The position numbers and the translations under genes were made by a program. Under the pieces are notes generated by a model, which was given only the letters and a program-made list of their open reading frames with translations, did no database searches and was not told the origin of the DNA. Positions 1 to 62,433 of a DNA stretch of 64,000 bases are shown in pieces. Within the stretch, counting starts at the first letter, position 1, and the number at the start of each line of letters is the position of its first letter. Origin of the DNA: Rufibacter roseus. GTDB taxonomy: Bacteria; Bacteroidota; Bacteroidia; Cytophagales; Hymenobacteraceae. Where the stretch lies: positions 248,001-312,000 of the forward strand of contig NZ_LRML01000002.1 in NCBI RefSeq assembly GCF_001647285.1, in the 5' to 3' direction.

Positions 1-792
1 AAAACAGCTGATGATGTAACGCTGCACCAGCGCCTGCTCCTCTATTTCTTTCTGCCGCCAAATGGCATCGGCAGAAGTCAAGCCCTCCGTCAGAGGTTGT
101 GTACCAGCCAATGCCACCGTTCTGAATACTTTGTGCTTGTCTATCTGCACCAGCAGCTCAGGGGTAGCTCCCAACCAAGTTCCCAACCCAGGCACCGCCA
201 CCAAAGAAACAAAGGCAGTGGGGTACAGTTGCGTTAGTTGGGTAAAAGTGTTCAGCAGGTTAAAGCCTTCATAAAGAGGCAACGTCTTCGTACGGGACAG
301 CACCACTTTCTCTAGGCAACCCGCCTGCATGGCCTCCACAGCGTTGGCTACACTTTTTTCAAAAGCATCGCGGGCAAGAAATTTAGCTGTTCCGTCAGGG
401 TGGGTTGGCCAAGTCAGGTCTGATGGCTGTTTTTGGGCTGTTTTTTTAAAAACTGCCCAAAAACGCTCAGGCAGCTCCTGCTCTCCGGTTTCTAAACTTT
501 CTTTTATTTTGCTGCAGAAATACAAAACGGCAGGCAAAAACACTTTTGGCGCAGCCTCAGAAAGCTGGAACGGACAAAAAGCAAAACCTTTCTGGCCGCC
601 TTCTAACTGCGGCAACTCATTTTGGCGCTCACCCGAAACCAGAACCTGTATGTCTTGAGAATTAGGTAATCGCCAAAGCGCCGCTGGTAACTCAGCCTGT
701 AAAGCAGCAGTGAATAAATGGTAAGCAATTTCTTCTGGAGAGGCATCAACTGAAGAAATCAGATTTTGAATGTGTGAGGTTGTATGGGGCAT
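1..792 (-). CDS. menF: Isochorismate synthase, N-terminal part (cut by window edge)
   Basis: The frame starts at ATG 790-792 and stays open to base 1, giving 264 residues with the C-terminus outside the window. The protein belongs to the chorismate-binding enzymes, which isomerise chorismate to isochorismate, the entry step to menaquinone or catecholate siderophores. Visible family segments include VVLSRTKTLPL, a stretch around WLGATPELLVQ and RTVALAGTQP, typical of the MenF/EntC core. It starts 7 bases after the thioesterase stop, so the two are surely cotranscribed. With that hotdog thioesterase beside it, menaquinone synthesis is more likely than siderophore synthesis. Oddity: a 36-nt interspersed palindrome (429-464) is read in frame as about residues 110-121 (FWAVFKKTAQK). 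The family call is firm; menF rather than entC is inferred. Confidence 0.85.
   Translation of the reverse strand, partial: MPHTTSHIQNLISSVDASPEEIAYHLFTAALQAELPAALWRLPNSQDIQVLVSGERQNELPQLEGGQKGFAFCPFQLSEAAPKVFLPAVLYFCSKIKESLETGEQELPERFWAVFKKTAQKQPSDLTWPTHPDGTAKFLARDAFEKSVANAVEAMQAGCLEKVVLSRTKTLPLYEGFNLLNTFTQLTQLYPTAFVSLVAVPGLGTWLGATPELLVQIDKHKVFRTVALAGTQPLTEGLTSADAIWRQKEIEEQALVQRYIISCF
429..464. repeat. 36-nt interspersed palindrome, copy 1 (inside a gene)
   Basis: Arms GTTTTTGGGCTG and ACTGCCCAAAAAC with a shifted loop. It lies within isochorismate synthase and, being 36 nt, keeps the frame; it is read as about residues 110-121. Confidence 0.85.
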
Positions 793-799
793 GAAATAA

Positions 800-1219
800 T
801 TATCTGTCCAAAACGGCCATGGTGATGCGGCTTATGCAAACTAAATCACCGGCCTCTGAGGTAATACGGATTTCCCAGACCTGGGTGCGGCGGCCCACAT
901 GAAGCGCAGTAGCTTTTCCATACACATACCCGCTGCGCACGCTCTTAATGTGGTTAGCGTTAATCTCCAGCCCCACGCAATACTGCTTACCCAAGTCTAA
1001 GAACATGGTGGCACCAACACTTCCTAAAGTTTCAGCTAGCGCTACAGATGCCCCCCCATGCAAAAGACCCATGGGCTGGTGCGTGCGGTGGTCTACCGGC
1101 ATACGCCCCACAAGGTAATCATCGCCAATTTCGGTATACTCTATACCAATGTGTTCGCCCATTGTATTTTTGTTCCAGCTATTTAGCTGCTCCAACGAGA
1201 CATCCGCGCGTCTTTTCAT
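800..1219 (-). CDS. Hotdog-fold thioesterase (YdiI/MenI-like)
   Basis: This 139-residue protein is a PaaI/YdiI-type hotdog thioesterase. The motif HGGASVALAET holds His54 and the probable general base Glu63, the same number as the catalytic Glu in E. coli YdiI. The length fits the family. It lies 7 bases upstream of isochorismate synthase on the same strand. In menaquinone synthesis a YdiI/MenI enzyme hydrolyses 1,4-dihydroxy-2-naphthoyl-CoA, and the neighbour makes that the best guess. A general acyl-CoA thioesterase (PaaI-like) or an EntH-like proofreading role remains possible. The start is ATG at 1217-1219; the opposite gene begins only 54 bases away, so the short gap must hold both promoters. 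Confidence 0.88.
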   Translation of the reverse strand: MKRRADVSLEQLNSWNKNTMGEHIGIEYTEIGDDYLVGRMPVDHRTHQPMGLLHGGASVALAETLGSVGATMFLDLGKQYCVGLEINANHIKSVRSGYVYGKATALHVGRRTQVWEIRITSEAGDLVCISRITMAVLDR

Positions 1220-1273
1220 CCGTAGTATTCGTATTTATGCCCTACCTTTAGGGTCTGCAAATTAGCGTAAAAA

Positions 1274-1908: not shown

Positions 1909-1944
1909 GTTTTAGACCTGTTTTTTTGAAAATAGCTCAAAAAC
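1909..1944. repeat. 36-nt interspersed palindrome, copy 2
   Basis: Arms GTTTTAGACCTG and AGCTCAAAAAC, imperfectly paired. It lies between the phosphatase and the pyruvate dehydrogenase E2 gene and may slow or end readthrough. Confidence 0.7.
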
Positions 1945-2025
1945 GCCTGCATATTCTCTTTAAACCTTATTTGTATTAGAGCATTTTTGCCTCTATTTTT
2001 GAGGCAATAAAACTGAGCGACAACT

Positions 2026-3711
2026 ATGGCCGAAATCATACGAATGCCCAAGATGAGTGACACCATGACCGAGGGGGTCATTGCCTCATGGTTAAAGAAA
2101 GTTGGTGATTCTGTGAAATCTGGGGACATTCTTGCTGAAGTGGAAACCGACAAGGCGACCATGGAACTGGAGTCTTACGAAGACGGGACTTTACTATACA
2201 TTGGTCCAAAAGACGGTGAATCTGTACCTGTAGATGGTGTTTTGGCCATCATAGGGAAACAAGGAGAAGATATTTCAGGCCTTTTGGCCGAAGCAAACGG
2301 CGGCAGCGCCCCTGCCAAAACCGAAGAGCCTAAACAAGCCGAGGCCCCTAAGGCCGAAGCCAAACAAGAGGCTGCACCAGCTGCCTCTGCCCCTGCCGCC
2401 AATGTGAACGCTGAAGTGGTGCGTATGCCCAAAATGAGCGACACCATGCAGGAAGGCACTATTGTAGCCTGGCATAAAAGAGTAGGCGACAAAGTTAAGT
2501 CTGGCGACCTTTTGGCTGAGGTAGAAACCGACAAGGCCACCATGGAGCTAGAGTCTTATGAAGACGGTACTCTCCTTTACATAGGTGTAGAGGCCGGTAA
2601 CGCAGTTGAAGTAGACGGTATCTTAGCCATTATAGGTGAAGAAGGAGCTGATTACAAGTCCTTACTGAACGGTGGTGGAGGTGCTCCAAACACAGTCACT
2701 GGCTCACAGGAAGAAGTAAGCCGCGCTGAAAACCATAAAACCGACGCACAGACCCAATCTGGTGACGGTGTAAATCAGGCAGCCAACGCTCCTGTACCTG
2801 GCCAAGGCACATCTGCCTCTTCCGGTACAGGCAACGGTGGCCGTATTTTGGCTTCTCCGCTAGCTAAGAAAATTGCCCAGGAAAAAGGCATTAACCTTTC
2901 CGACGTGAAAGGTTCTGGTGAGAACGGACGTATTGTGCAACGTGACGTGGAGAGCTTCACTCCTAGCGCGGCTGCTCCAAAAGCTCAACCACAAGCCGCT
3001 TCGGCTGCTGCCCCTGTGGCCGCACCAGGTGAGGCTTATACTGAGGTTCCGGTATCGCAGATGCGTAAGGTGATTGCCCGCCGTCTTTCAGAGAGCTTGT
3101 TCACTGCGCCGCACTTCTACCTGACCATGGAAATTGACATGGACAAAGCCATGGAAGCGCGTACGGCCATGAACGAAGTATCTCCGGTGAAAGTATCATT
3201 TAATGACATGGTGATCAAAGCCGCTGCCGCTGCCCTTAAAAAGCACCCAGCCGTGAACTCTTCTTGGTTAGGCGACAAAATACGCTACAACAACGTGGTG
3301 AACATTGGCGTGGCCGTAGCCGTGGAAGAAGGATTGTTAGTACCTGTTGTTCGTAACGCTGACCAAAAGTCACTTTCTTCTATCTCTGCCGAAGTAAAAG
3401 ATTTAGGTGGAAAAGCCAAGTCTAAGAAACTTCAGCCTAGCGATTGGGAAGGCAGCACGTTCACTATCTCTAACTTGGGTATGTTTGGCATTGAAGAATT
3501 CACTGCCATTATCAACCCGCCAGATGCTTGTATCTTGGCTGTGGGTGGTATTAAACAAACGCCAGTGGTGAAAAAAGGTCAGATTCAGATTGGCAACGTG
3601 ATGAAAGTTACCTTGTCATGCGATCACCGAGTAGTAGATGGAGCCGTTGGGTCTGCTTTCCTTCAAACGCTGAAAGCATTCCTGGAGAACCCAGTAACCA
3701 TGCTAGTTTAA
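2026..3711 (+). CDS. pdhC: Pyruvate dehydrogenase E2, dihydrolipoamide acetyltransferase
   Basis: This 561-residue protein is the acetyltransferase core of the pyruvate dehydrogenase complex, passing acetyl groups from E1 to CoA. It has two N-terminal lipoyl domains (about residues 2-78 and 131-207), each with the lipoylation motif ETDKATMELES (Lys43 and Lys170). Ala/Pro-rich swinging linkers follow each one. A peripheral-subunit-binding domain lies at about 274-310 (ILASPLAKKIAQEKG). The catalytic domain holds the DHRVVDG signature (His534, Asp538). The two lipoyl domains are very alike at the base level, which suggests a recent duplication or gene conversion. No E1 or E3 gene is adjacent. 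The gene stands alone, with a palindrome before it and a strong terminator after it. Confidence 0.95.
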   Translation: MAEIIRMPKMSDTMTEGVIASWLKKVGDSVKSGDILAEVETDKATMELESYEDGTLLYIGPKDGESVPVDGVLAIIGKQGEDISGLLAEANGGSAPAKTEEPKQAEAPKAEAKQEAAPAASAPAANVNAEVVRMPKMSDTMQEGTIVAWHKRVGDKVKSGDLLAEVETDKATMELESYEDGTLLYIGVEAGNAVEVDGILAIIGEEGADYKSLLNGGGGAPNTVTGSQEEVSRAENHKTDAQTQSGDGVNQAANAPVPGQGTSASSGTGNGGRILASPLAKKIAQEKGINLSDVKGSGENGRIVQRDVESFTPSAAAPKAQPQAASAAAPVAAPGEAYTEVPVSQMRKVIARRLSESLFTAPHFYLTMEIDMDKAMEARTAMNEVSPVKVSFNDMVIKAAAAALKKHPAVNSSWLGDKIRYNNVVNIGVAVAVEEGLLVPVVRNADQKSLSSISAEVKDLGGKAKSKKLQPSDWEGSTFTISNLGMFGIEEFTAIINPPDACILAVGGIKQTPVVKKGQIQIGNVMKVTLSCDHRVVDGAVGSAFLQTLKAFLENPVTMLV

Positions 3712-3760
3712 TTATAGAAAGTTTGAATTAGTTATTCGTTATTAGACGGATAACTTTAAA

Positions 3761-3800
3761 AAAGGAGCCGCTGGAGAAATCTAGCGGCTCTTTTGTTTTG
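3761..3800 (+). terminator. Rho-independent terminator of pdhC
   Basis: The stem GAGCCGCT (3765-3772) pairs with AGCGGCTC (3783-3790) and is followed by TTTTGTTTT. It sits about 50 bases after the E2 stop. The T-run forms the start of the next 36-nt palindrome. Confidence 0.85.
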
Positions 3801-3830
3801 GGACTGTTTTTGAGAAAGTAAGCCGAAAAC
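3795..3830. repeat. 36-nt interspersed palindrome, copy 3
   Basis: Arms GTTTTGGGACTG and AAGCCGAAAAC, poorly paired in the middle, so probably a decayed copy. It abuts the pdhC terminator. Confidence 0.6.
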
Positions 3831-3846
3831 GAATGGCACGAGTGTA

Positions 3847-3869
3847 GAGACTAGGCACTGCCTCGTCTC
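3847..3869. repeat. Short GAGAC...GTCTC inverted repeat
   Basis: GAGACTAGGCA pairs with TGCCTCGTCTC across one base with a single mismatch. GTAGAGAC-type palindromes are common dispersed repeats in Bacteroidota (recall, not verified here). Only one copy is seen in this window. Confidence 0.45.
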
Positions 3870-3999
3870 CATCGCATTTCAAAACAGGTTGTTATTTTGC
3901 TGTGAGTTGAGTTTGCATCAGCACGCTTCGCACCGCCAGATAGCTAATCTCTCGAATGGCGTTGCTGTGTCAGAAGATTAAAAAATTTCTGCAGAGGCT

Positions 4000-4041
4000 A
4001 TTGGCACAGACACTCGCAGGTCTTGAAGACACTGCGAGATC
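4000..4041 (+). repeat. 42-nt repeat, copy A
   Basis: It starts ATTGGCACAGACACTCGCAG and matches 18959-19000 at 40 of 42 bases. It holds an internal dyad (CTCGCAG with CTGCGAG around GTCTTGAAGAC). A 36-nt palindrome follows 12 bases later, as at the second site. Confidence 0.85.
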
Positions 4042-4053
4042 TTTTGTGTTGGC

Positions 4054-4089
4054 GTTTTTGGCCTCTTTTCCAGAAATTAGGCCAAAAAC
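4054..4089. repeat. 36-nt interspersed palindrome, copy 4
   Basis: Arms GTTTTTGGCCT and AGGCCAAAAAC pair fully. The T:A pair at arm position 6 replaces the C:G or A:T seen in other copies. It lies downstream of the NagB fusion gene. Confidence 0.85.
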
Positions 4090-4103
4090 GAAAAGAAAAT
4101 TCA

Positions 4104-4145
4104 TAAAAAAAGCCGCTCCAGTTTCCTGAAGCGGCTTTTTTATCT
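4104..4145 (-). terminator. Terminator of nagB
   Basis: On the minus strand AAAAAAGCCGCTTC pairs with GGAGCGGCTTTTTTT (stem AAAGCCGCT / AGCGGCTTT). It sits 13-54 bases after the NagB stop. A-runs and T-runs on both sides mean it could stop transcription from either side. Confidence 0.85.
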
Positions 4146-4157
4146 TTAGGCTTTCTA

Positions 4158-6080
4158 TTAGTATTTGAAACGTACAAAGGCCTCCATGGCTTCATAATCA
4201 GCCAAGCCAAGTTTGTCGTAGCGGCGGGCGGTATCGCGGTTACGCTCTTGGGCACGTACCCAGAACTCACGTTCGTCGTCGCCTGGGAACACAGGACGGT
4301 CTTTTTGGCTTTGGTGCTTGAAAATGGCATTTTTCTTCCGCTCTACTTCCTGAGGAGAAAGCGGTACAGCCATTTCAATTTCATGAGTCTCAAACTCGTG
4401 CCAGGCTCCGCGGTACATCCACAGCCAGCAATCGGCTACCCAAGATTCCCCGGCATCGCGCAGCCTTCTCAGCGCCTCAACAATGATATTAAAACACACG
4501 ATGTGAGTACCATGGGGATCTTCAAAGTCACCGGCGGCAAACACCTGATGTGGTTTAATGCTCTGTAGCAACTGCATGGTCAGCTCAATGTCTCTGTCAG
4601 TTACCGGATTCTTCTTTGTCTTACCGCTCTCATAGAAAGGCAAAGCCTGGAAATGGATATGATCATCTTCAAGTCCAGCATAGCGTGCGCCTGCAATTGC
4701 CTCGCTTTTTCTGATAAAGGCTTTTACATTTTGAATTTCAGGGGTATCCACTTCATTGGGCTGCTTCTGCTCAATAAATGAACGCATATTCTCATAAATA
4801 CCCTTCAATTTGCTGTTGTCATCGCCAATACTAGCTTTGAAATCAATAGCAAACTCCATGTAGCGCAATACGTCATCATCCCAAACAGCAGTGTTTCCGG
4901 AGGTTTGGTACGCCACATGTACATCATGCCCCTGATCTACTAACCGAATGAAGGTACCACCCATAGAGATTACGTCATCATCAGGGTGCGGGGAGAAAAC
5001 AATAGACCGCTTTTTAGCAGGCTCTGCACGCTCAGGACGGCGTGAATCATCAGCGTTAGGTTTACCACCGGGCCAACCCGTAATGGTTTGCTGAAGTTTA
5101 TTAAAAATATCAATATTGATGTTGTACACAGGCCCACGGTCTACGGCTAACTGCGCCATGCCGTGGCTGTTATAGTCTTCTTCAGTAAGCTTCAGAATTG
5201 GTTTCTCTACCTCACAAGAAAGCCAAATAACTGCTTTCTTCGTCAGTTGTTCGTCCCACACGCAGTCTCTGGTCAACCAAGGCGTGTCAAATCGGGTAAG
5301 TTCAGATGCTGCATCCTGATCCAACACAAATTCTACGTTGTCAGACAACTGCAGGTATGTAGCCGGAACTTCCCCTGAAATCTCGCCTTCTACCGCTTTC
5401 TTTATGATGGAAGCTTTCTTGCCGTTCCATGCCATCAAAACGATTTCACGGGCTTTGAAGATGGTTCCGATACCCATGGTGATGGCCTTCGTGGGCACAT
5501 TCTCTTTACCACCGAAATCACGTGAGGCATCACGGCGGGTAAGGTCATCTAAAGTAACTAAGCGAGTACCTGAGTTAGGCGCAGAACCCGGTTCGTTAAA
5601 ACCTATGTGACCAGTACGACCAATACCCAGCACTTGCAAATCTAAGCCACCTAGTTCTTCTATCTTCCGCTCGTATTCTAAGCAGAACGCAGGAATTTCT
5701 TCTAATGGCAGAGTACCATCTGGAATATTAATGTTAGCCCGCTCTATGTCTATATGATCAAACAGGTTCTCATTCATGAACGTCACATAGCTCTGCTTGG
5801 CGGTTGGCTGCATAGGGTAATACTCGTCCAGATTGAACGTGACCACATCCCGGAAGCTCAGCCCCTCTTCTTTGTGCAGGCGCACTAACTCGGCATAAAC
5901 TCCTACAGGAGTAGCTCCAGTGGCCAAACCTAATACGGTTTTCTCGCCTTTGGCTTGTTTGGCTTTGATCAGTTCCGCAATTCTGCGGGACACAGTTTTA
6001 GAGGCAATATGCTGATCTGGATAAACGGTTACTGGGAGTTTCTCAAAACGGGTTTCTTCTAGCAGGTTTAAACGGCTCAT
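4158..6080 (-). CDS. nagB: Glucosamine-6-phosphate deaminase fused to LmbE-type deacetylase
   Basis: This 640-residue protein has two domains. Residues about 10-330 are NagB-like, with GLATGATPVGVY (51-62), FNLDEYYPM (Asp85) and GIGRTGHIGFNEPGS (152-166), so it should convert glucosamine-6-phosphate to fructose-6-phosphate and ammonia. Residues about 358-640 are a PIG-L/LmbE deacetylase domain with the zinc motif HPDDD (365-369) and a later PHGTH motif. The fusion is known in Bacteroidota and would pair deacetylation of an N-acetylated amino sugar with deamination, though the natural substrate of the second domain is inferred. Oddity: E. coli NagB has Asp141 two residues before His143; here that position is Thr (RTGH). 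A good promoter lies at 6116-6145. Confidence 0.92.
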   Translation of the reverse strand: MSRLNLLEETRFEKLPVTVYPDQHIASKTVSRRIAELIKAKQAKGEKTVLGLATGATPVGVYAELVRLHKEEGLSFRDVVTFNLDEYYPMQPTAKQSYVTFMNENLFDHIDIERANINIPDGTLPLEEIPAFCLEYERKIEELGGLDLQVLGIGRTGHIGFNEPGSAPNSGTRLVTLDDLTRRDASRDFGGKENVPTKAITMGIGTIFKAREIVLMAWNGKKASIIKKAVEGEISGEVPATYLQLSDNVEFVLDQDAASELTRFDTPWLTRDCVWDEQLTKKAVIWLSCEVEKPILKLTEEDYNSHGMAQLAVDRGPVYNINIDIFNKLQQTITGWPGGKPNADDSRRPERAEPAKKRSIVFSPHPDDDVISMGGTFIRLVDQGHDVHVAYQTSGNTAVWDDDVLRYMEFAIDFKASIGDDNSKLKGIYENMRSFIEQKQPNEVDTPEIQNVKAFIRKSEAIAGARYAGLEDDHIHFQALPFYESGKTKKNPVTDRDIELTMQLLQSIKPHQVFAAGDFEDPHGTHIVCFNIIVEALRRLRDAGESWVADCWLWMYRGAWHEFETHEIEMAVPLSPQEVERKKNAIFKHQSQKDRPVFPGDDEREFWVRAQERNRDTARRYDKLGLADYEAMEAFVRFKY

Positions 6081-6115
6081 AGTAGGGTTTCAGGTTTTTG
6101 CACACGTGGAATCTG

Positions 6116-6145
6116 CAAAGGTAAAAAGTCTAGTGAATGGTCAAA
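6116..6145 (-). promoter_or_regulatory. Bacteroidota-type promoter of nagB
   Basis: On the minus strand a TTTG (6142-6145) is followed after 18 bases by TACCTTTG (6116-6123), a full match to the Bacteroidota -33 TTTG / -7 TAnnTTTG promoter. The start codon follows about 35 bases downstream. Confidence 0.6.
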
Positions 6146-6307
6146 GGGTAAGGATGAAACTTTTTCATTTTTTTTACTAAGTCAGAAGCTTTCTTCTATT
6201 TTTATTTCTTTTTGCTTACTCTACAGAAATACTATATAGTTAGTTAAATCATATAAAATGAGACGGGCTTTCCCGTCCATTGCTACGCGGTTTCTCCTTT
6301 AAAAAAG

Positions 6308-6341
6308 TTTGTCGTAGCTTCGCACCACAACCTTACATTAG
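6308..6341 (+). promoter_or_regulatory. Possible hslV promoter
   Basis: TTTG (6308-6311) and TACATTAG (6334-6341, one mismatch to TAnnTTTG) are 22 bases apart, ahead of the ATG at 6369. The spacing is long, so this is tentative. Confidence 0.35.
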
Positions 6342-6368
6342 TAAGTGTGGTTTTAAAAGGAAAAAGAA

Positions 6369-6908
6369 ATGGTGAAAATAAGATCTACAACCGTAGTTGG
6401 CATTTACCACAATGGCGAGGTCGCACTTGGCGCTGATGGTCAGGCTACTATGGATAAATATATTGCCAAGAGCAACGTACGCAAGGTTAGAAAGCTGCAA
6501 GATGGTAAAATAGTAACTGGTTTTGCTGGTTCTACCGCCGATGCCTTTACCCTGCTGGAACGCTTTGAGGAAAAGTTGAACGCCTACAGCAACAACATGA
6601 AGCGAGCCGCCATTGAACTGGCCAAAGACTGGCGCAAAGACCAGTACCTGCGCAAGCTGGAGGCAATGATGGTAGTAGCTAACAAAGAGGAACTCCTGAT
6701 TATTTCTGGCACCGGCGATGTTCTGGAACCAGACCACCAGATTGCCGCTATCGGTTCAGGTAGCACCTATGCCCAGGCCGCAGCCCTGGCACTGAAAAAG
6801 CACGCTCCACATCTAACGGCTGAAGAAATGGTACGCGAAGCCCTTACCATCGCCGCCGATATCTGTATCTACACCAACCATAATCTTATAATAGAAAAAC
6901 CGAACTAA
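6369..6908 (+). CDS. hslV: ATP-dependent protease peptidase subunit HslV
   Basis: This 179-residue protein is the proteasome-like threonine peptidase of the HslUV protease. It aligns along its length with E. coli HslV (GADGQATM, FAGSTADAFTLLERFE, IAADICIYTNH). The catalytic Thr is probably Thr7, since TTVVGI matches the mature TTIVSV start of E. coli HslV. That leaves a six-residue MVKIRS propeptide to be removed, unlike E. coli, where only Met is removed. The ATPase partner gene hslU is not next to it, so it must be elsewhere in the genome. A deoxyhypusine-synthase-like gene follows after 100 bases with no clear terminator between them. Confidence 0.95.
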   Translation: MVKIRSTTVVGIYHNGEVALGADGQATMDKYIAKSNVRKVRKLQDGKIVTGFAGSTADAFTLLERFEEKLNAYSNNMKRAAIELAKDWRKDQYLRKLEAMMVVANKEELLIISGTGDVLEPDHQIAAIGSGSTYAQAAALALKKHAPHLTAEEMVREALTIAADICIYTNHNLIIEKPN

Positions 6909-7008
6909 GACGGTAGTGATAGTGTTTGCTTTTTGAACCTCAAAAAAGGATAAACCTACAGGTTCTGAAGCTATTTTTAACAAGCATAATAAAACTAGAA
7001 GAAACAGA

Positions 7009-7980
7009 ATGAAAGTAACGCAGTTCCTGAAAGACCATTACAAGCATTTTAATGCCGCAGCCTTAGTAGACGCAGCTGAGGGCTATAAAACACACTTGAA
7101 CAATGGCGGCAAAATGATGATTACCTTGGCTGGCGCCATGAGTACCGCCGAATTAGGAATCATCTTGGCTGAAATGATCCGTCAGGACAAAGTGCAGGCC
7201 ATTACCTGTACAGGTGCCAACTTGGAAGAAGATATCTTCAACTTAGTGGCCCACGATTTTTATGAGCGTATCCCGAACTACCGGGACCTTACTCCGCAGG
7301 ACGAGCAAGACCTGTTAGACCGACACCTGAACCGCGTTACCGATACCTGTATTCCAGAGGAAGAGGCTATGCGACGATTGGAGCACACAGTGTTGAAGTA
7401 TTGGCAAAAGGCTGATCAGGCCGGTGAGGCATATTTCCCGCACCAGTTCTTCTACCAGATCTTGTTATCAGGTGATTTGGAGCAATATTACCAGATTGAC
7501 CCTAAAAACAGCTGGATGTTGGAAGCAGCTAAAAAGAACCTGCCTATCTTCGTTCCGGGCTGGGAAGATTCTACTTTAGGTAACATTTATACTGGCCACG
7601 TGATCAGCGGTGATATCAAAAATGTTCATACCATGAGAACTGGTATTCAGTACATGATGGAGCTGGCTGAGTGGTATACCCAAACTGCTACTGAAGAGTC
7701 TACCATTGGATTCTTTCAGATTGGCGGTGGTATTGCCGGTGACTTCCCTATTTGTGTGGTTCCTATGCTGCATCAAGACTTACAACGCACAGGTGTTCCA
7801 CTATGGGGATACTTTGCTCAAATCTCTGACTCTACCACCAGTTACGGTTCTTATTCAGGTGCAGTGCCTAATGAGAAGATCACATGGGGTAAGTTAGGAA
7901 TAGATACCCCAAAGTTTGTGATAGAATCAGATGCTACTATTGTGGCACCACTTGTATTCGCCATAGTACTTGATTATTAA
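7009..7980 (+). CDS. Deoxyhypusine synthase family protein
   Basis: This 323-residue protein belongs to the deoxyhypusine synthase family, which transfers the aminobutyl group of spermidine to a lysine or amine. The C-terminal motif ITWGKLGID keeps the catalytic lysine (Lys295, matching Lys329 of human enzyme in its SWGK motif), and the NAD-binding core is present (MITLAGAMSTAELG, FFQIGGGIAGDFPI). In eukaryotes and archaea the target is eIF5A/aIF5A, which bacteria lack. Bacterial members are thought to make polyamines such as homospermidine or to have unknown targets. The active-site lysine argues for a working enzyme. No polyamine gene is adjacent. A terminator fused to a palindrome follows. 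Confidence 0.88.
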   Translation: MKVTQFLKDHYKHFNAAALVDAAEGYKTHLNNGGKMMITLAGAMSTAELGIILAEMIRQDKVQAITCTGANLEEDIFNLVAHDFYERIPNYRDLTPQDEQDLLDRHLNRVTDTCIPEEEAMRRLEHTVLKYWQKADQAGEAYFPHQFFYQILLSGDLEQYYQIDPKNSWMLEAAKKNLPIFVPGWEDSTLGNIYTGHVISGDIKNVHTMRTGIQYMMELAEWYTQTATEESTIGFFQIGGGIAGDFPICVVPMLHQDLQRTGVPLWGYFAQISDSTTSYGSYSGAVPNEKITWGKLGIDTPKFVIESDATIVAPLVFAIVLDY

Positions 7981-7989
7981 TACAAAGCC

Positions 7990-8025
7990 GTTTTAGGCAT
8001 ATATTTCAAAAAGCGGGGCTTAAAC
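7990..8025. repeat. 36-nt interspersed palindrome, copy 5 (merged with terminator)
   Basis: Outer arms GTTTTAGGCA and GGGGCTTAAAC are recognisable, but the inside has become part of the terminator hairpin at 8007-8042. Confidence 0.6.
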
Positions 8026-8042
8026 GTCCCGCTTTTTTTTTG
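8007..8042 (+). terminator. Terminator after the deoxyhypusine synthase-like gene
   Basis: AAAAGCGGG pairs with CCCGCTTTT and is followed by a run of T, ending about 60 bases after the stop codon. Confidence 0.85.
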
Positions 8043-8326
8043 CCTATACCTATAAAATCTCTATTAATCGACTGGTACTAAAAGTTGGCAGAGCATCTCA
8101 TAGCCACTTAAGCTATAGCCATGATGGCTTCTAAAATCATGAATTGATACTCTATATACCGTTTTACCTGCCATTAAAAATAATTATCACATTTTCAGTA
8201 GATTATGTTAAAAACTACTACCTTTAATATGTATTAAAAATTTAAGAAAAACATTATAAGATTCTAATAAAAAAATAAAACCTTAATTCATCAAGGCATC
8301 GTAAGTAACGGAAACACAAGTTCTTA

Positions 8327-8935
8327 ATGAGGATCAAAAAGATGAAGAAAAGCTACACATTATTCAAGCTGGCAATTTTGCTAATGGCTTGTGGCCTCAG
8401 CAGCTGCTTGGGGTTTGGCAACCGTAAATTTGGATCAGATTATAGCTATAAGGGAGCCTTCCATAAGTATAAAACCTTTAACTTCATTACCCATGCTTCT
8501 GCAGAAGACAGTGCTACCATACAACAATATCAGGTCCTTAAGAAATTCATAAGGGAAAGGCTGGAGATTCAGGGGTACGAATACTCTGAAAAGAAGCCAG
8601 ATCTTCTAGTGAGTTACTACCTCTATTACAATGACCTTAAAATGAAAGGTTATGAGCAAGAGGAATTTGACATTTGGCTTACTAAAAATGAGGAACCGTC
8701 TGAGGAGCACGAACCCTACCGTCCTGTGAAAATGTACATGAGCCAAGGTACTTTACTGGTGACGCTTCTAGATCATAAAAAGCAGAATGCCGTGTGGCAA
8801 GGTTATACCTCAGGTGTGTTAGCCGACCGGTCATCAGAAAATACCGCGTACCTGAACAGAGCTGTCAGAACAATTTTTGATCAATACAGAGTGTTCCGCA
8901 AAGGGTATCTACGGGAAACATCTCACGCAAATTAA
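8327..8935 (+). CDS. DUF4136 lipoprotein
   Basis: This 202-residue protein has a lipoprotein signal peptide: a basic start, a hydrophobic stretch and the lipobox LSSC with Cys27. The remainder resembles DUF4136 proteins (YKTFNFI near the start, KPDLLVSYYLYY, then LLVTLLDHKKQNAVWQGYTSGVL). These are envelope lipoproteins of unknown function in many Bacteroidota and Proteobacteria. ATG at 8327 and an in-frame ATG at 8342 (MKKSYTLF) are both possible; the second gives the more usual signal peptide. It is a single gene between an AT-rich, featureless 280-base spacer and its own terminator. Confidence 0.85.
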   Translation: MRIKKMKKSYTLFKLAILLMACGLSSCLGFGNRKFGSDYSYKGAFHKYKTFNFITHASAEDSATIQQYQVLKKFIRERLEIQGYEYSEKKPDLLVSYYLYYNDLKMKGYEQEEFDIWLTKNEEPSEEHEPYRPVKMYMSQGTLLVTLLDHKKQNAVWQGYTSGVLADRSSENTAYLNRAVRTIFDQYRVFRKGYLRETSHAN

Positions 8936-8983
8936 GAACTCAGAAAGCATTAATAATTGTATTTCCTCTCATTCTTCTTTAAG

Positions 8984-9027
8984 AACAGCGTTGCCATATT
9001 TAAATATGAGGTAACGCTGTTTTTATT
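8984..9027 (+). terminator. Terminator of the DUF4136 gene
   Basis: AACAGCGTT and CATATTT pair with AAATATG and AACGCTGTT around a short loop and are followed by TTTTATTTTA. Confidence 0.75.
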
Positions 9028-9136
9028 TTAATTACTGCTTAACTGCACAAAACCAAATTCTCTTATAGCACATACCTATAATCTTCTTTACTTTTATACA
9101 TGCTGCTTTTGTATCTTAGCACTTAAAGAACCTCTA

Positions 9137-10606
9137 ATGTCCCTAAATGAAATTGATTCCCTTCTTAACTTATTAGAACAGCAGGCAAGCGTACTTGAGC
9201 CAGATCTATTTCAAAGGCAGCAAGTACAGTCAGAAGTGGAACAATATGTTCAAACATTCCTCTCCCAATTACCTCAACGACCTTCCTTTGTTGTTACCCC
9301 AGACAAGGGAATTAAGATGTTGGACAGTCCAATTTCTGAGAATTCTATATCAATTCAGGAGGCACTGCAACTTCTAAACGATAATGTAGACACACCAGGT
9401 TTGAATCCTGCCTCTCCTCGGCACATGGGTTATATTCCGGGCGGCGGACTTTATTACTCTGGCTTAGGTGATTACTTGGCAGCGGTGACGAATAAATATG
9501 CCGGACTGTTCTACTCAGCACCCGGAGCTGTTCGAATGGAGAACATGCTGTTGCGTTGGATGGCGGGAATAATAGGCTTTCCTGAGGATGCGGCTGGAAA
9601 TCTTGCCTCAGGGGGTAGCATTGCTACTCTCATTGCATTGGCTACCGCCCGCGATGCCATGGGTGTAAAGGCTCGCCAGATTCCAGATTCAGTTGTTTAT
9701 ATGTCTGCACAGGCGCACCATTGCCTGGAGAAGGCGTTACGGATAGCAGGTTTAGGTGAATGCCCTGTGCGGATCTTGCCCATGGATGCTCAATACCGGT
9801 TGCAACCTGAAGCTCTAGAGCATGCCATTACAGCTGATCAAAAAGCTGGCTTACGGCCTTGGCTCTTAATTGCCACCGCCGGCACCACTGATGTAGGTGC
9901 CATTGACCCTCTTCTTGCTTTAAGTTCCATTGCCAAAAAGCATGGGCTATGGTACCACGTGGATGCTGCCTACGGCGGATTTTTCGCGCTAGCTCCTTCT
10001 GGCAAAGAGAAACTCTCAGGCATTGAGCAGGCAGACTCAGTAGTGCTGGACCCGCACAAAGGATTATTTGTACCCTTTGGTCTTGGGGCAGTACTAATAA
10101 AAAACAAGGCGCAGATGGCGCAGACGCACCACTACCAGGCCAATTATATGCAAGACACGCTCAGTGCCACTGAAGAAGCCTCCCCAGCTGACTTGTCTCC
10201 GGAGCTGACCAAACACTTCCGTGGCCTTAGGCTTTGGTTACCCCTGAAGTTGCACGGGGTGGCGCCTTTCCGTAGTGCCTTAGAAGAAAAACTACTGTTG
10301 GCTCAGTATGTGTACCAACGGCTGTGCCACATGCCTAATGTGGAAGTGCCCGTAGAGCCCGAATTATCAGTGGTAGTGTTTCGGGTGATTCCTTCTTCAG
10401 GAGCAGATATAAATACTTTTAACCAAAAATTAAGTTTGGCAGTACAGCAAGACGGAAGGGTATTTTTGTCTTCTACTAAATTGCAAGACAGCTTCATGCT
10501 TCGATTTGCTATTCTTTCCTTCAGAACCCATAAGGAAACACTGGATTTAGCCTTACAAATTTTACAGGAAAAAGCCGCTGAATTGGAAGCAAACTGGCAG
10601 GCCTAA
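9137..10606 (+). CDS. PLP-dependent group II decarboxylase
   Basis: This 489-residue protein is an aromatic-L-amino-acid / glutamate / diaminobutyrate decarboxylase relative. It has the PLP Schiff-base lysine in DPHKGLFVPFG (Lys308), the pyridine-binding Asp276 in HVDAAYGG and the His stacking pair in AQAHHC (residues 194-195). The family makes amines from amino acids; the substrate cannot be set from sequence. The gene is monocistronic and converges on the 2H phosphoesterase gene with only 3 bases between the stops. A TATCTTAG just ahead of the start (about 9112) is a possible -7 element. Aspartate 1-decarboxylase and tyrosine decarboxylase relatives are alternatives. Confidence 0.9.
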   Translation: MSLNEIDSLLNLLEQQASVLEPDLFQRQQVQSEVEQYVQTFLSQLPQRPSFVVTPDKGIKMLDSPISENSISIQEALQLLNDNVDTPGLNPASPRHMGYIPGGGLYYSGLGDYLAAVTNKYAGLFYSAPGAVRMENMLLRWMAGIIGFPEDAAGNLASGGSIATLIALATARDAMGVKARQIPDSVVYMSAQAHHCLEKALRIAGLGECPVRILPMDAQYRLQPEALEHAITADQKAGLRPWLLIATAGTTDVGAIDPLLALSSIAKKHGLWYHVDAAYGGFFALAPSGKEKLSGIEQADSVVLDPHKGLFVPFGLGAVLIKNKAQMAQTHHYQANYMQDTLSATEEASPADLSPELTKHFRGLRLWLPLKLHGVAPFRSALEEKLLLAQYVYQRLCHMPNVEVPVEPELSVVVFRVIPSSGADINTFNQKLSLAVQQDGRVFLSSTKLQDSFMLRFAILSFRTHKETLDLALQILQEKAAELEANWQA

Positions 10607-10609
10607 GCT

Positions 10610-11185
10610 TTACTTAAGGGAAGATAGCTTTAGGGCTGACGGCTCCCGCGAATCAAGGAGTGGAAACTCTCCGTCTTTCAAATAGTGGTCCCCATTCTTG
10701 GTGAGCAGTGTTAGATTAGTTAGCTCCATTTGCCAGCAATAGCTCTCTCTATTCAGGTAAAGCATCGCCTGCGCTACCAGTTCTGGTGTAGTGTCACCTA
10801 AGGCTAAAGAAAGGTGCGGCATCCAAAACTCAGGGTGATAGTAAGCCCCTGTTTCTTGACTGATGTTACTGATGGCATTGTGCAACTGATGGTGAAATCT
10901 GTTAAGTGCATAAGTGCGCAGAACAGGAATATACAAAACAGGATTTACTCCTGGGAAAACACCCAATCCAGTAGTTCTAACCATGAAACGGCAGCAAATC
11001 CCTGCTGCTTGTCCCAGCGCTGCCTTAATTTCGTCTATGCTCCCGTCGTTAGCAGTAAGCCAGGTGATGTGCGGATATGGAGTTGCTTGTACCCCTTTCA
11101 ACCCAAACTCCCGTTCAAGCTCATAAATCAGACTGTTCACCTTGTCTGAGTACTCGGCATCTAACAAAGAGACAATAGCAACCAT
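10610..11185 (-). CDS. 2H phosphoesterase (2'-5' RNA ligase family)
   Basis: This 191-residue protein has the two HxT/S motifs of the 2H phosphoesterase superfamily: YPHITW (His39, Thr41) and MPHLSLA (His124, Ser126), 85 residues apart as expected. Family members act as 2'-5' RNA ligases or cyclic phosphodiesterases on RNA or nucleotides. The exact substrate is unknown. It converges on the decarboxylase gene with 3 bases between the stops, so each transcript must end inside or past the other gene. A 36-nt palindrome lies 18 bases upstream of its start codon, in what should be its 5' leader or promoter. Confidence 0.85.
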   Translation of the reverse strand: MVAIVSLLDAEYSDKVNSLIYELEREFGLKGVQATPYPHITWLTANDGSIDEIKAALGQAAGICCRFMVRTTGLGVFPGVNPVLYIPVLRTYALNRFHHQLHNAISNISQETGAYYHPEFWMPHLSLALGDTTPELVAQAMLYLNRESYCWQMELTNLTLLTKNGDHYLKDGEFPLLDSREPSALKLSSLK

Positions 11186-11203
11186 ATTAAGGGGTTTAAA
11201 TGT

Positions 11204-11239
11204 GTTTTGGTGCCAATTTTCAAAAAACAGGGCAAAAAC
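11204..11239. repeat. 36-nt interspersed palindrome, copy 6
   Basis: Arms GTTTTGGTGCC and CAGGGCAAAAAC with mismatches. It is upstream of the 2H phosphoesterase start (11185), so unlike most copies it is in a 5' region. The rest of the spacer up to 11456 shows nothing clear. Confidence 0.65.
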
Positions 11240-12617: not shown

Positions 12618-12666
12618 AAACTCTATATTACAGCTGCAATTTCAAAAAATTCAGAGAATTTAGCGC

Positions 12667-14626: not shown

Positions 14627-14983
14627 ATGCAATCTTCCAGAAGACAAACATTAGAGGCCACTGCCTCCCTCAGCCTGCTGCTGCTGATACTGTACCTGCT
14701 GTGGTTTCCTATTAGGGAGTTGGTCATTAGCTCGGCGGCAGTATTATTACTGGGTCTATTTTCGGTCCCTCCTATTCCGTGGCTACTCAGGCAATGGATG
14801 CGCCTGCTGCACCTATTAGGAATCATCAACACCAAAATACTGCTGGCCCTCATCTTCTTTGTGGTACTAACGCCCCTGGCTTGGATTTACCGGCTCTTCA
14901 ATAAAGAAAAACCCAAAGAAAATACCAATTTCACTCCTCGTCACCACACCTTCTCCGCCTCAGATTTCGAAAACCCGTTTTAG
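14627..14983 (+). CDS. SxtJ-family membrane protein
   Basis: This 118-residue protein has two to three membrane segments (about residues 10-28, 33-50 and 65-85) and a polar tail, like SxtJ-family proteins encoded with SxtI-type carbamoyltransferases. I start it at ATG 14627, as the TTG three bases earlier is less likely. The biochemical role of the family is unknown. Its TAG stop lies inside a 36-nt palindrome (14977-15012): the last codons CCG TTT TAG are the left arm of the repeat. The operon probably ends here, as a promoter for the ABC-F gene follows. Confidence 0.8.
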   Translation: MQSSRRQTLEATASLSLLLLILYLLWFPIRELVISSAAVLLLGLFSVPPIPWLLRQWMRLLHLLGIINTKILLALIFFVVLTPLAWIYRLFNKEKPKENTNFTPRHHTFSASDFENPF

Positions 14984-15012
14984 GGTTGTTTTCCGAAAAA
15001 CAGGTCTAAAAC
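14977..15012. repeat. 36-nt interspersed palindrome, copy 7 (carries a stop codon)
   Basis: Arms GTTTTAGGGTTG and CAGGTCTAAAAC. The TAG within the left arm is the stop codon of the SxtJ-like gene, so the element overlaps the coding end. Confidence 0.8.
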
Positions 15013-17033: not shown

Positions 17034-17068
17034 AAACCTCACTGGACTTGGTTGTCTAGTGAGGTTTT
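17034..17068 (+). terminator. Terminator of the ABC-F gene
   Basis: AAACCTCACT pairs with AGTGAGGTTT, followed by TTGCGTTTT. It sits directly before a 36-nt palindrome. Confidence 0.75.
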
Positions 17069-17070: not shown

Positions 17071-17106
17071 GTTTTCGGCCTATTTTCTGGAAAATAGGCC
17101 GAAAAC
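17071..17106. repeat. 36-nt interspersed palindrome, copy 8 (near perfect)
   Basis: GTTTTCGGCCTATTTT pairs fully with AAAATAGGCCGAAAAC. It carries C:G at arm position 6 and A:T at position 12 in place of the usual pairs. Confidence 0.9.
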
Positions 17107-18715: not shown

Positions 18716-18751
18716 CTTTTTGGCTTATTTTTCAGAAAGCAGGTCGAAAAC
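18716..18751. repeat. 36-nt interspersed palindrome, copy 9
   Basis: Arms CTTTTTGGCTT and CAGGTCGAAAAC, decayed. It leads straight into the plug gene terminator. Confidence 0.65.
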
Positions 18752-19015: not shown

Positions 19016-19062
19016 ATTTCTGTTTTAGGCTGTTTTTCAGAAAGCAGCCCTAAAACAGAAAT
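19016..19062. repeat. 36-nt interspersed palindrome, copy 10 (extended)
   Basis: The core (19022-19056, 35 nt) has arms GTTTTAGGCTG and CAGCCCTAAAAC. Flanks ATTTCT and AGAAAT lengthen the stem. It lies 35 bases past the stop of the minus-strand dehydrogenase gene. Confidence 0.85.
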
Positions 19063-24714: not shown

Positions 24715-24760
24715 AAAGCGTTTTGGGGCTGGTTTTCAAAAAACGGCTCCGAAACGCTTT
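24715..24760. repeat. 36-nt interspersed palindrome, copy 11 (extended)
   Basis: The core (24720-24755) has arms GTTTTGGGGCTG and CGGCTCCGAAAC, extended by AAAGC and GCTTT outside. It follows pdxA. Confidence 0.8.
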
Positions 24761-24803: not shown

Positions 24804-24839
24804 GTTTTCCGCCTGTTTTCCCAAAAGCAAAGCGAAAAC
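24804..24839. repeat. 36-nt interspersed palindrome, copy 12
   Basis: Arms GTTTTCCGCCTG and CAAAGCGAAAAC, partly paired. It is the second copy in the same 233-base gap between pdxA and yceD. Confidence 0.65.
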
Positions 24840-28934: not shown

Positions 28935-29199
28935 TATGAATTAAAAATTAAGAATTATGAAGGGGGGTATCTCTTCATAATTTTTGTTTCAAGTGAACCT
29001 GTTAAGGCTCCTTCCTAACCTAGTGAGATTAATATTTAATTGGGTTGTTCCATTTTAGGCATAATTTTCTGAAAACAAGCCTAAAACAAAAATTCAGGAG
29101 CCGTTGGCTAGCTACTTTTAACATAAAAGGTAAGAGTACTGAGCAAGCAAGTGAGACAGGTTCTTCAATTTTTAATTCTTAATTTCTAATTTTTAATTA
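28935..29199. repeat. Inverted AT-rich repeats bracketing the accB-accC spacer
   Basis: The left copy (28935-28971) contains AATTAAAAATTAAGAATTAT and the right copy (29163-29199) is largely its reverse complement. The left one also forms its own hairpin, AATTATGAAG with CTTCATAATT (about 28953-28982), followed by TTTTTG and so terminator-like. A 36-nt palindrome lies between the two copies. Confidence 0.7.
29052..29087. repeat. 36-nt interspersed palindrome, copy 13
   Basis: Arms ATTTTAGGCATAATTTT and GAAAACAAGCCTAAAAC. It sits in the middle of the accB-accC spacer. Confidence 0.8.
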
Positions 29200-30636: not shown

Positions 30637-30672
30637 GTTTTCAGCCTATTTTCCAGAAAACTAGCCAAAAAC
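30637..30672. repeat. 36-nt interspersed palindrome, copy 14
   Basis: Arms GTTTTCAGCCTATTTT and GAAAACTAGCCAAAAAC. It lies between the convergent accC and DUF3109 genes, 30 bases from the latter's stop. Confidence 0.8.
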
Positions 30673-41899: not shown

Positions 41900-42030
41900 A
41901 GACACAAGACGTAAGACACAAGATGAAAGAGCACATATTTATGTTTATAGCCTGTTTTTCTGAAATCAGGCTATAAACATAAATATGTGCTTGGGAGTTG
42001 GAAAAATCTTGTGTCTTACGTCTTGTGTCT
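41900..42030. repeat. 131-base nested double hairpin
   Basis: Outer arms 41900-41924 and 42006-42030 are a perfect 25-bp inverted repeat built from AGACACAAG units. Inner arms 41930-41954 and 41967-41991 are a second perfect 25-bp inverted repeat whose core is the 36-nt palindrome 41943-41978. It fills most of the spacer between the helicase and DUF4290 genes. Confidence 0.9.
41943..41978. repeat. 36-nt interspersed palindrome, copy 15
   Basis: Arms GTTTATAGCCTG and CAGGCTATAAAC pair fully, with compensatory changes (T-A to A-T) against the consensus. It is the core of the 131-base double hairpin. Confidence 0.85.
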
Positions 42031-44120: not shown

Positions 44121-44156
44121 GTTTTTGACCTCTTTTCATGAAAATAGCCCTAAAAC
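44121..44156. repeat. 36-nt interspersed palindrome, copy 16
   Basis: Arms GTTTTTGACC and TAGCCCTAAAAC, imperfect, with outer CT/AG pair. It lies just after the murA terminator. Confidence 0.75.
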
Positions 44157-45070: not shown

Positions 45071-45124
45071 GCCCTCTGTTTAGGCCTGCTTTTAGAAAAT
45101 CAGGCCTAAAACAGAGGGCTTTTA
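45071..45124. terminator. Bidirectional terminator built on the 36-nt palindrome (copy 17)
   Basis: AGCCCTCTGTTTAGGCCTG pairs with CAGGCCTAAAACAGAGGGCT with one bulge, followed by TTTT. The core is 45078-45112. It sits between two convergent genes (stops at 45061 and 45122), with no other terminator in the 60-base gap. Confidence 0.88.
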
Positions 45125-46105: not shown

Positions 46106-46139
46106 CTTTTTTGACCTGTTTTTAAATCAGCCTTAAAAC
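46106..46139. repeat. 36-nt interspersed palindrome, copy 18 (34 nt)
   Basis: Arms CTTTTTTGACCTG and CAGCCTTAAAAC. It is shortened by 2 nt in the loop and lies between the alpha/beta hydrolase and DoxX genes. Confidence 0.7.
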
Positions 46140-47958: not shown

Positions 47959-47994
47959 GTTTTGGAGCTGTTTTATGAAAAATGAGCCCAAAAC
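47959..47994. repeat. 36-nt interspersed palindrome, copy 19
   Basis: Arms GTTTTGGAGCTG and TGAGCCCAAAAC, imperfect. It lies in the 260-base divergent gap between the methyltransferase and murB, in a 5' region for both. Confidence 0.75.
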
Positions 47995-49194: not shown

Positions 49195-49230
49195 GTTTTA
49201 GGGCTCTTTTAAAGAAAATAACCCTAAAAC
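49195..49230. repeat. 36-nt interspersed palindrome, copy 20
   Basis: Arms GTTTTAGGGC and AACCCTAAAAC. It lies between the murB terminator and the mutS2 stop. Confidence 0.8.
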
Positions 49231-54657: not shown

Positions 54658-54954
54658 ATGGATACCTATAACATGAAACCAGAAAATATGCGGGCTCCTC
54701 AGCACTTAAATGAGAAAGAGATAAGGCAAAGCCTGGAGGAGTTAGATAATAAAATAAAGGTACTGCAAGGTAGAGCCAACGCCACCACTGCTGATTCAAA
54801 CAATACCTACCATGAGCACATTGCCGCCCTTGAAGCCAAACGTGCTTTGATTGCGGGCAAGCTGAACGATACCTCCAGTGCGAATGAAGGGACATGGAAA
54901 GAAATCAAAAACAGCATTGATGATTTAGGCGAGAGTATCAAAAAGATGTTTTAG
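54658..54954 (+). CDS. Small coiled-coil protein, sll1863-like
   Basis: This 98-residue protein is highly helical: heptads in KEIRQSLEELDNKIKVLQGRA and HEHIAALEAKRALIAGKLND, then a GTWKEIKNSIDDLGESIKKMF tail. The pattern resembles sll1863-type stress proteins and apolipoprotein-like coiled coils. No signal or membrane part. It is alone and divergent from trkH. Its stop TAG is formed by the left arm of a 36-nt palindrome (ATG TTT TAG), so the element trims or defines its end. Confidence 0.75.
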   Translation: MDTYNMKPENMRAPQHLNEKEIRQSLEELDNKIKVLQGRANATTADSNNTYHEHIAALEAKRALIAGKLNDTSSANEGTWKEIKNSIDDLGESIKKMF

Positions 54955-54983
54955 CACTGGTTTTTCTAAAACAAGGCTAAAAT
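54948..54983. repeat. 36-nt interspersed palindrome, copy 21 (carries a stop codon)
   Basis: Arms GTTTTAGC and GGCTAAAAT with a degenerate middle. The TAG is the stop of the small coiled-coil gene, as with copy 7. Confidence 0.7.
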
Positions 54984-57610: not shown

Positions 57611-57662
57611 CAGGAGTCGTTTTAAGGCTGTTTTTCAAAAAACAGCCCTAAAACGACTCCTG
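57611..57662. repeat. 36-nt interspersed palindrome, copy 22 (extended, terminator-like)
   Basis: CAGGAGTCGTTTTAAGGCTG pairs with the matching arm ending CGACTCCTG, giving a stem of about 24 bp with one G/A mismatch. The core is 57619-57654. It lies 26 bases past the paaN stop and probably ends that transcript. Confidence 0.88.
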
Positions 57663-62360: not shown

Positions 62361-62397
62361 AGGAAGAGATATCAATATCTTTTAACATAATACGGCT

Positions 62398-62433
62398 GTT
62401 TTAGCCCTTTTTTTGCCAAAACAGCTCTAAAAC
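62398..62433. repeat. 36-nt interspersed palindrome, copy 23
   Basis: Arms GTTTTAGCCC and GCTCTAAAAC, imperfect. Its right arm is shared with the perfect palindrome at 62423-62474. Confidence 0.75.

Follow-up and report, generated by a model that had tools for sequence, protein, structure and literature searches.

What is the sequence that recurs 23 times in a 64,000-nt stretch of the Rufibacter roseus genome (GCF_001647285.1, NZ_LRML01000002.1, 248,001-312,000; hereafter the window, whose coordinates are used below)? The initial annotation of this DNA described a dispersed family of 36-nt palindromes with near-fixed ends and length, and offered a selected hairpin, a repetitive extragenic palindrome (REP)-like family moved by a transposase, a protein site or a terminator module as possible explanations. 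The reading we favour, at a probability of roughly 0.45, is that of a genus-wide double-stranded DNA (dsDNA) dyad site, built from 11-bp units, for a putative DNA-binding protein that would co-evolve with it. This agrees with the protein site listed among those options, and we rank it ahead of a REP-like repeat, with an RNA hairpin third.

The motif reads GTTTT-N-GGCC/GGGC-TG-TTTT, followed by four loose bases and the mirror image. Direct inspection found it at all 23 positions given initially, and the quoted paired changes in the arms were correct as well. Exactly 36 nt are occupied by 20 of the 23 copies, as had been said; those at 19022 and 45078 have 35 nt, and 46107-46139 is a poor 33-nt copy. 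A scan for the ends plus pairing gave 19 matches in the window (two of them, of 30 and 31 nt, were judged non-members) against 0-3 in ten first-order random sequences, and a position-specific profile that did not demand pairing, built from 258 copies with exact ends (14 from the window), recovered 22 of the 23 (it misses 46106) with no extra copies. The dispersed family with its near-fixed ends and length is thus borne out. Rfam gave no match in the window at the gathering threshold.

Copy number is high. Over the whole R. roseus genome the pattern GTTTT-N26-AAAAC has 1,010 matches compared to 27 for the pattern read backward, and the pairing-free profile found 411 copies in 1.264 Mb, with 0 in the reversed control, which extrapolates to about 1,660 per genome; in 400 kb of a relative, G302, it found 168 against 0. 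The scan of this genome and its relatives that had been proposed showed enrichment over reversed controls in all 16 genus members (84 to 1,747 exact-ended copies against 15 to 38). Low exact counts in some members are partly a matter of spelling: once the ends were relaxed, stretches of 62-80 kb from eight relatives yielded 20-41 copies each, against 0-3 in the reversed control. In an order-wide count of 291 genomes four genus members stand out, and the other 287, 41 of them in the same family, have at most 100 matches each, some slightly but none markedly over the control (the largest difference is 40 against 23). Five further relatives have 26-52 pattern matches against 22-63 in controls, G303 being over its own (49 against 35). 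A covariance model detected the element in all 11 Rufibacter-group sources and, among 15 others, weakly in one (L009, E about 1); of six sister-genus genomes, with 150 candidates scored per genome out of 1,917 to 14,320, G303 yielded two matches (best E 4.4e-5) and the other five yielded none. The two matches and the slight pattern excess in G303, of sister genus g116, may be remnants of the family beyond the genus. Among the open-licence papers listed in literature searches, no title or abstract opening described this palindrome family.

The architecture of the site is a first line of evidence for the reading favoured here. Its length is near-fixed: with a half-site profile itself derived from the 36-mers, at a threshold of 13, 318 of 338 partner pairs in R. 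roseus are spaced at 36 bp (8 at 35, 5 at 37, 5 at 47 and 2 elsewhere), as are 153 of 154 in G302, and a direct scan of 400 kb gave 98 of 116 matches at 36 nt, the other 18 being close to the 14 of the reversed control. A 47-bp class (36+11) looked real at a low threshold (15 cases); it was not counted because it may follow from the internal 11-bp repeat. That repeat is visible in R. roseus in the string CTGTTTT: among 411 left arms, 148 have an exact match at the outer position and 143 at the inner one, which lies 11 bp closer to the centre. The dyad continues into weaker edges, TTCT/AGAA in R. roseus (about 44 bp in all) and TTTCC/GGAAA in G302, the base frequencies of the two arms are symmetric, and there is no GTAG or CGTC tetranucleotide tag. 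The half-sites vary largely independently, their scores in R. roseus showing no positive correlation (r=-0.10), and strong half-sites without a partner are few (69 against 411 copies; 5 against 168 in G302). A dyad with fixed spacing and independent half-sites is what a site for a DNA-binding protein should present, and the family does present it, a result qualified by covariation at positions 6 and 31 and by a half-site correlation in G302, both taken up below.

The initial annotation had read compensation between the arms as selection for the folded form throughout. An excess of covariation is real in the 23 window copies, with a score of 0.168 compared to 0.123 when shuffled (sd 0.016; 3 of 500 shuffles as high) and above slid controls, while the 6 pairs changed on both sides are no excess (248 of 500 shuffles as high). 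It is real in the 411 copies too, where paired changes are in strong excess at 6-31 (211 against 116 expected), follow at 9-28 (214 against 171) and are weaker at 5-32, 7-30 and 8-29. However, the arms are independent at 10-27, 11-26, 12-25, 13-24 and 17-20 although those positions vary, and in G302 the excess lies at 6-31, 12-25 and 5-32, with 13-24 below expectation. The 332 copies with 0-2 flanking pairs have a mean pairing near that of random half-sites (11.39 against 11.21 and 11.74 against 11.46 of 16), whereas the 79 copies with at least three flanking stem pairs pair better (13.23 against 12.05 and 13.77 against 12.42 of 16), and per-copy compensation in R. roseus is several-fold stronger in these 79 than in the other 332. 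All four flanking classes of G302 are near random (13.10 against 13.00, 12.75 against 12.90, 13.37 against 13.41 and 15.24 against 15.02). Selection for folding throughout is therefore not borne out, compensation being absent at five inner pairs in R. roseus and several-fold stronger per copy in the flanking-stem minority; outside that minority the covariation is chiefly that of 6-31. Covariation could also arise by mutation, if template switching at quasi-palindromes copied one arm or flank onto the other, and long perfect flanking arms of arbitrary sequence do stand beside imperfect cores, with pair status correlated between neighbouring positions. We regard this as very improbable, given that the flanking arms are paired across species, mostly with T runs, and that the inner pairs are left uncorrected.

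Placement is the second line of evidence: the copies are intergenic and mostly one per occupied gap. By hexamer-based gene calls made for this analysis, which are not an annotation, tandem gaps hold 234 of the 411 copies, convergent gaps 104 and divergent gaps 43; 28 copies lie inside called genes, and 2 fall at stretch ends, where they have no context. Among gaps of at least 36 nt, a copy is held by 95 of 138 convergent, 219 of 537 tandem and 39 of 147 divergent ones in R. roseus, and by 33 of 37, 89 of 157 and 21 of 37, respectively, in G302, where 24 of the 168 copies are divergent; copy density is 3.3 per kb in convergent gaps compared to 0.93 in divergent ones. When copies were placed in simulation by gap length and type, or with length capped in a second version, the real copies proved to be under-dispersed. 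They occupy 352 of 810 gaps in R. roseus (255±7 simulated, 287±6 capped), with two or more copies in only 28 (79±5, 74±5 capped), and 143 of 229 in G302 (89±5, 112±4 capped), with two or more in 20 (36±3, 38±3 capped).

Third, sites are partly retained in orthologous gaps, and their spelling is specific to the species. All 11 ABCF loci have the element downstream of the gene, 41-49 nt past the stop and behind the T run of a terminator separate from it (two of the 11 are weak matches, E 0.12 and 0.05); the nearest named match of the window's ABCF protein is from Rufibacter ruber, at 95%. Nine of 16 ProDH loci keep their neighbourhood, and all nine carry the element within a stem (L204 by eye) whose flanking sequence differs between species while its pairing is kept. 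The other seven (L202, L203, L205 and L207-L210) have different sequence past the gene, with an element-like match elsewhere in L202, L209 and L210. Past a metallophosphoesterase gene the element sits at a terminator tip in six of 16 loci (two by eye) and is absent there in ten, and past a NUDIX gene it is present in five of eight orthologous loci (one by eye), not all with flanking arms. Comparing orthologous gaps of G302 and R. roseus, 14 hold a site in both, 5 in one only and 11 in neither (Fisher 0.0006); of the other 40 species pairs listed, which mostly offer 8-12 gaps and are non-independent, nine have an uncorrected p below 0.05. In 650 gene-end comparisons, likewise non-independent, a site is present in both members 256 times, in one 231 times and in neither 163 times, and in the 256 non-independent pairs with both present the stop-to-site distance differs by a median of 9 nt compared to 28 when permuted. 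Between R. roseus and G302, 10 of 24 distances match to within 12 nt and the other 14 differ by more, which shows that turnover exists. The half-site consensus, for which at least five copies were needed (L002 and L003 are without one), is GTTTTnGGcCTGTTTT in R. roseus, GTTTTCGGGCTCATTTC in G302, GTTTTTGGCCTGTTTTC in G297 and G240, and GTTTAGGGGCT in G293; with both arms counted, T stands at position 6 in 96% for the 27 copies of G297 and in 86% for the 25 of G240.

Dialects of this kind recall the DNA uptake sequences of Neisseriaceae, which one report (PMC3630211) describes as high-copy, terminator-associated and split into species dialects. A signal of this type, kept by biased transformation and with dialects isolating species, would parallel the high copy number, the dialects and the terminator association seen here, and in-place change of dialect would fit biased recombination. 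Nevertheless, it has very little probability in our view: uptake sequences have about 10-12 bases and are common in genes, compared to 28 of 411 copies in called genes here, and the lone half-sites that it would call for are few. The family does not present itself as a short directed motif, frequent in genes and occurring in single copies.

A further question is whether the copies act as RNA, that is, as a hairpin at mRNA 3' ends, terminator or stabilising cap, conserved by base pairing. Copies do lie mostly at gene 3' ends, with convergent gaps richest. The stem runs on through at least six flanking bases in 35 of the 411 copies (about 1 expected) and in 21 of 168 in G302 (about 3 expected), in arbitrary sequence and over up to 18 bp; about half of these long-flank copies, judged by eye, are terminators of the form A-run/stem/element/stem/T-run, and the others have no T run. 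The kept pairing of the ProDH stem points the same way, as does a weak excess of G.U over A.C pairs. T makes up about half of positions +6 to +15 after tandem copies with at least three flanking pairs; in contrast, the 184 tandem copies of R. roseus with 0-2 flanking pairs have on average no T-rich stretch afterwards. A GC-rich stem followed at once by a T run characterises a subset and, on average, not the stand-alone majority; the terminator module proposed initially applies to part of the copies only.

Nor is there an overall polarity. Transcription-oriented arms do not differ overall in 234 tandem copies (p=0.35) or in 103 of G302 (p=0.44). Over the 17 pairs of oriented copies G.U and A.C stand at 289:252 in R. 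roseus (p=0.12) and 111:81 in G302 (p=0.036), 400 against 333 together, and the flanking stems show no G.U excess (156:165 and 48:57; 204 against 222 together). A much larger G.U excess is expected of an RNA stem. With no overall polarity and only a weak G.U excess, a folded RNA is not indicated; what compensation there is in R. roseus lies at the outer pairs alone and is strongest in a subset. The length hardly varies, though a hairpin loop could, and 43 of 411 and 24 of 168 copies are divergent. In convergent gaps of 60-600 nt a separate terminator is equally common with the element (44 of 85) and without it (14 of 30) in R. roseus; in G302 it is present in 11 of 25 gaps with and 4 of 4 without, as if the element could replace it, numbers too small to weigh. 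We consider the RNA hairpin unlikely. The idea, suggested by the ABCF locus, that every copy adjoins a terminator is not general either: one lies directly upstream of 38 of 234 tandem copies in R. roseus and 16 of 103 in G302, and in R. roseus other terminators are equally common in convergent gaps with and without the element.

Returning to the dsDNA site, we propose the following arrangement. A CTGTTTT-like unit recurs 11 bp apart in each arm of the 36-bp dyad and is mirrored in the other arm, and a sequence-specific protein would most likely bind the site along one helix face, either as a dimer or as a dimer of dimers. The protein reading the site would co-evolve with its spelling, and the site may mark or insulate the boundary of a transcription unit at gene 3' ends. 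A minority of copies stand at the tips of intrinsic terminators or immediately behind the T run of a terminator; in the flanking-stem copies hairpin pairing appears to be selected too, and supplies much of the covariation noted initially. A stronger version, in which one dyad per gap and a genus-specific protein form a boundary-element system of well over 1,000 sites, re-spelled in place several times while the genus radiated, that marks or insulates the ends of transcription units chromosome-wide, is in our judgement rather unlikely.

Several observations weigh against a dsDNA dyad of this kind. Pair 6-31 covaries even with few or no flanking pairs (65 against 49 and 78 against 47 expected), with smaller excesses at 8-29 and 9-28, and perfect palindromes exceed what random joining of half-sites gives (21 against 1.3 in R. 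roseus, 38 against 18.5 in G302). Neither is predicted by a pure dsDNA dyad, and hairpin effects or birth as a palindrome may be in play. One of 26 polarity positions (position -5, R. roseus) has an uncorrected p of 0.006, and the pooled weak G.U excess has p=0.015. The association of orthologs may come partly from gap type and length. In G302 identical pairs number 167 compared to 43 expected, with sets of 13 and 12, and half-site scores are positively correlated (r=0.47), which is what a recent wave of copying would give; G302 may be in the middle of such a wave of copying or conversion. Finally, no binding protein was found, in a quarter of the genome read and with ParB-type genes as the sole candidate family counted; 44 of 45 genomes have a ParB-type match, a single gene in all but four, and none is extra in the nine genus members sampled.

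These features of G302, together with the excess of perfect palindromes, are also what favours a REP-like selfish repeat. This would be a very small non-autonomous element, copied by an unrecognised enzyme, tolerated almost only between genes and inherited vertically as a population within the genome, with a master sequence in each species. The family is short, palindromic and extragenic, exceeds 100 copies and is prominent in a single genus; its preference for convergent and then tandem gaps is that of REPs, as given in an earlier study (PMC3733652). The end tag (GTAG/CGTC) and asymmetric unit of REPs are lacking here, as is a cognate RAYT flanked by elements. In R. roseus there is no identical pair among the 411 copies and no target duplication of at least 5 bp (one 5-base match among the 168 of G302). 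Short flank matches in R. roseus show small excesses at 2 bp (23 against 12) and 4 bp (5 against 2) and a deficit at 3 bp (2 against 6); the excesses are absent in G302. Simple transposition with target duplication, the criterion for a miniature inverted-repeat transposable element, is accordingly unsupported by the flank comparison. Density stays within about twofold across the eight relatives sampled, sites are retained at orthologs, and the dialect switches within the same composite terminator.

The transposase check that had been proposed for this option was run as well. PF01797 (Y1_Tnp) detects six genes in R. roseus, none having a nearby copy on each flank; the RAYT loci L100 and L101 have one 36-mer copy within 300 nt. 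RAYT-like Y1 transposase genes at L102 1369-2008, L103 1202-1339 and L104 1225-1826 have adjoining palindromes of their own, unrelated to the 36-mer, of GGCGCGGAAGT type at L102 and GGAAGTTTA type at L104, on both sides of the gene. G240, a single contig with 1,041 exact copies, has no RAYT by the family model or by a genus RAYT query, and RAYT-like genes also occur in sister genera without the element. RAYT as the mobiliser is rejected on account of G240, of these sister genera and of the other palindromes of L102-L104, with the caveats that 15 of 16 genus members have RAYT-like genes and that at L105 1364-1408 an element-like palindrome, TGTTTCCGGCCTGTTT...AAACAGACCGGAAAC, lies immediately upstream of one of the R. 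roseus RAYT-like genes. A REP-like repeat without RAYT is the most serious rival, though still a doubtful one, to the dsDNA site.

The copies in the window, with one associated terminator, are as follows.

Copy 1: 429..464, no strand, 36-bp dyad element.
Copy 2: 1909..1944, no strand, 20 nt past the stop of the + strand gene 1274-1888.
Copy 3: 3795..3830, no strand, convergent gap, directly after a strong + strand hairpin with a T run.
Copy 4: 4054..4089, no strand, in the convergent gap of copy 3, adjoining a - strand terminator-like hairpin at 4106-4141.
Copy 5: 7990..8025, no strand, 9 nt past the stop of the + strand gene 7009-7980.
Copy 6: 11204..11239, no strand, tandem (- -) gap.
Copy 7: 14977..15012, no strand, begins 7 nt short of where a small called + strand gene ends.
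Terminator: 17034..17067, + strand, the ABCF gene's intrinsic terminator, a classic hairpin with a T run that abuts copy 8.
Copy 8: 17071..17106, no strand, 43 nt past the ABCF stop, perfect 16/16 pairing; ten related loci also have a site 41-49 nt past ABCF.
Copy 9: 18716..18751, no strand, convergent gap, with a strong hairpin to its right.
Copy 10: 19022..19056, no strand, 35 nt, in the convergent gap of copy 9.
Copy 11: 24720..24755, no strand, five extra flanking pairs.
Copy 12: 24804..24839, no strand, shares its gap with copy 11.
Copy 13: 29052..29087, no strand, tandem (+ +) gap.
Copy 14: 30637..30672, no strand, convergent gap.
Copy 15: 41943..41978, no strand, 13 more perfectly paired bases per side (41930-41942 with 41979-41991).
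Copy 16: 44121..44156, no strand, downstream of a strong + strand terminator-like hairpin.
Copy 17: 45078..45112, no strand, 35 nt, short convergent gap.
Copy 18: 46107..46139, no strand, degenerate, 33 nt, missed by the profile.
Copy 19: 47959..47994, no strand, divergent gap, the sole divergent one among the 22 copies with called genes on both sides.
Copy 20: 49195..49230, no strand, convergent gap, directly after a strong + strand terminator-like hairpin.
Copy 21: 54948..54983, no strand, convergent, overlaps the final 7 nt of a small called + strand gene.
Copy 22: 57619..57654, no strand, eight more perfectly paired flanking bases per side.
Copy 23: 62398..62433, no strand, convergent gap, adjoining a strong - strand hairpin.

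Among the neighbouring genes, 7009-7980, past whose stop copy 5 lies, belongs to the deoxyhypusine synthase family (PF01916), an enzyme best known from eukaryotes and archaea, and 4158-6080 encodes a single protein in which a glucosamine-6-phosphate isomerase domain is combined with a PIG-L deacetylase domain. A second, low-copy structured repeat, with the core CTCGCAGGTCTT...AAGACACTGCGAG followed by a T-rich stretch, has about seven copies in 1.26 Mb of R. roseus: at 4013 and 18972 of the window, and, in G000, at 338375 and 381152 of C1 and at 346304, 353136 and 358741 of C33. Each of its two window copies stands beside a 36-mer in a convergent gap. Of four sub-strings of this repeat, 400 kb of G302 contained one, a single time, and lacked the other three.

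Extragenic palindromes have been known for four decades, and whether they are selfish or useful is unsettled. The present family offers a natural test of that question, with 16 species, probably well over 1,000 sites in each, spellings of their own, partly orthologous positions and at least one species searched for a RAYT without success. Should a protein co-evolve with the spelling, genome comparison ought to reveal it, and the result would be, for a bacterium, an unusually dense sequence-specific binding system spanning the chromosome. Chromosome-organising elements such as parS and matS are palindromic dsDNA sites to which a protein binds, and the centre of the 36-mer, TGTTTTCNNGAAAACA, may be parS-like. 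The 36-mers differ from sites of this type in their number, about 1,600 per genome by extrapolation, in standing mostly one per occupied gap, and in having no extra ParB-type gene in nine members. Compared to intrinsic terminators, the stand-alone copies are without an average T run and the family is without overall strand polarity; a minority of all copies form the apical stem of a terminator with an A run and a T run. The Neisseriaceae uptake sequences share high copy number, dialects and a frequent position within terminators, but the 36-mer is much longer, has a fixed dyad, is rare in coding sequence and is rarely single. From the REP/REPIN-RAYT systems the 36-mer is set apart by its symmetry without a GTAG/CGTC tag, near-fixed length, little compensation of the hairpin type in most copies, as a rule no more than one copy per gap, in-place change of dialect, no RAYT in the copy-rich G240 and some RAYT loci with other palindromes. 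What it shares with them is a short extragenic palindrome in hundreds to thousands of copies per genome within one lineage, enriched in convergent and tandem gaps, with long vertical persistence and a species master sequence.

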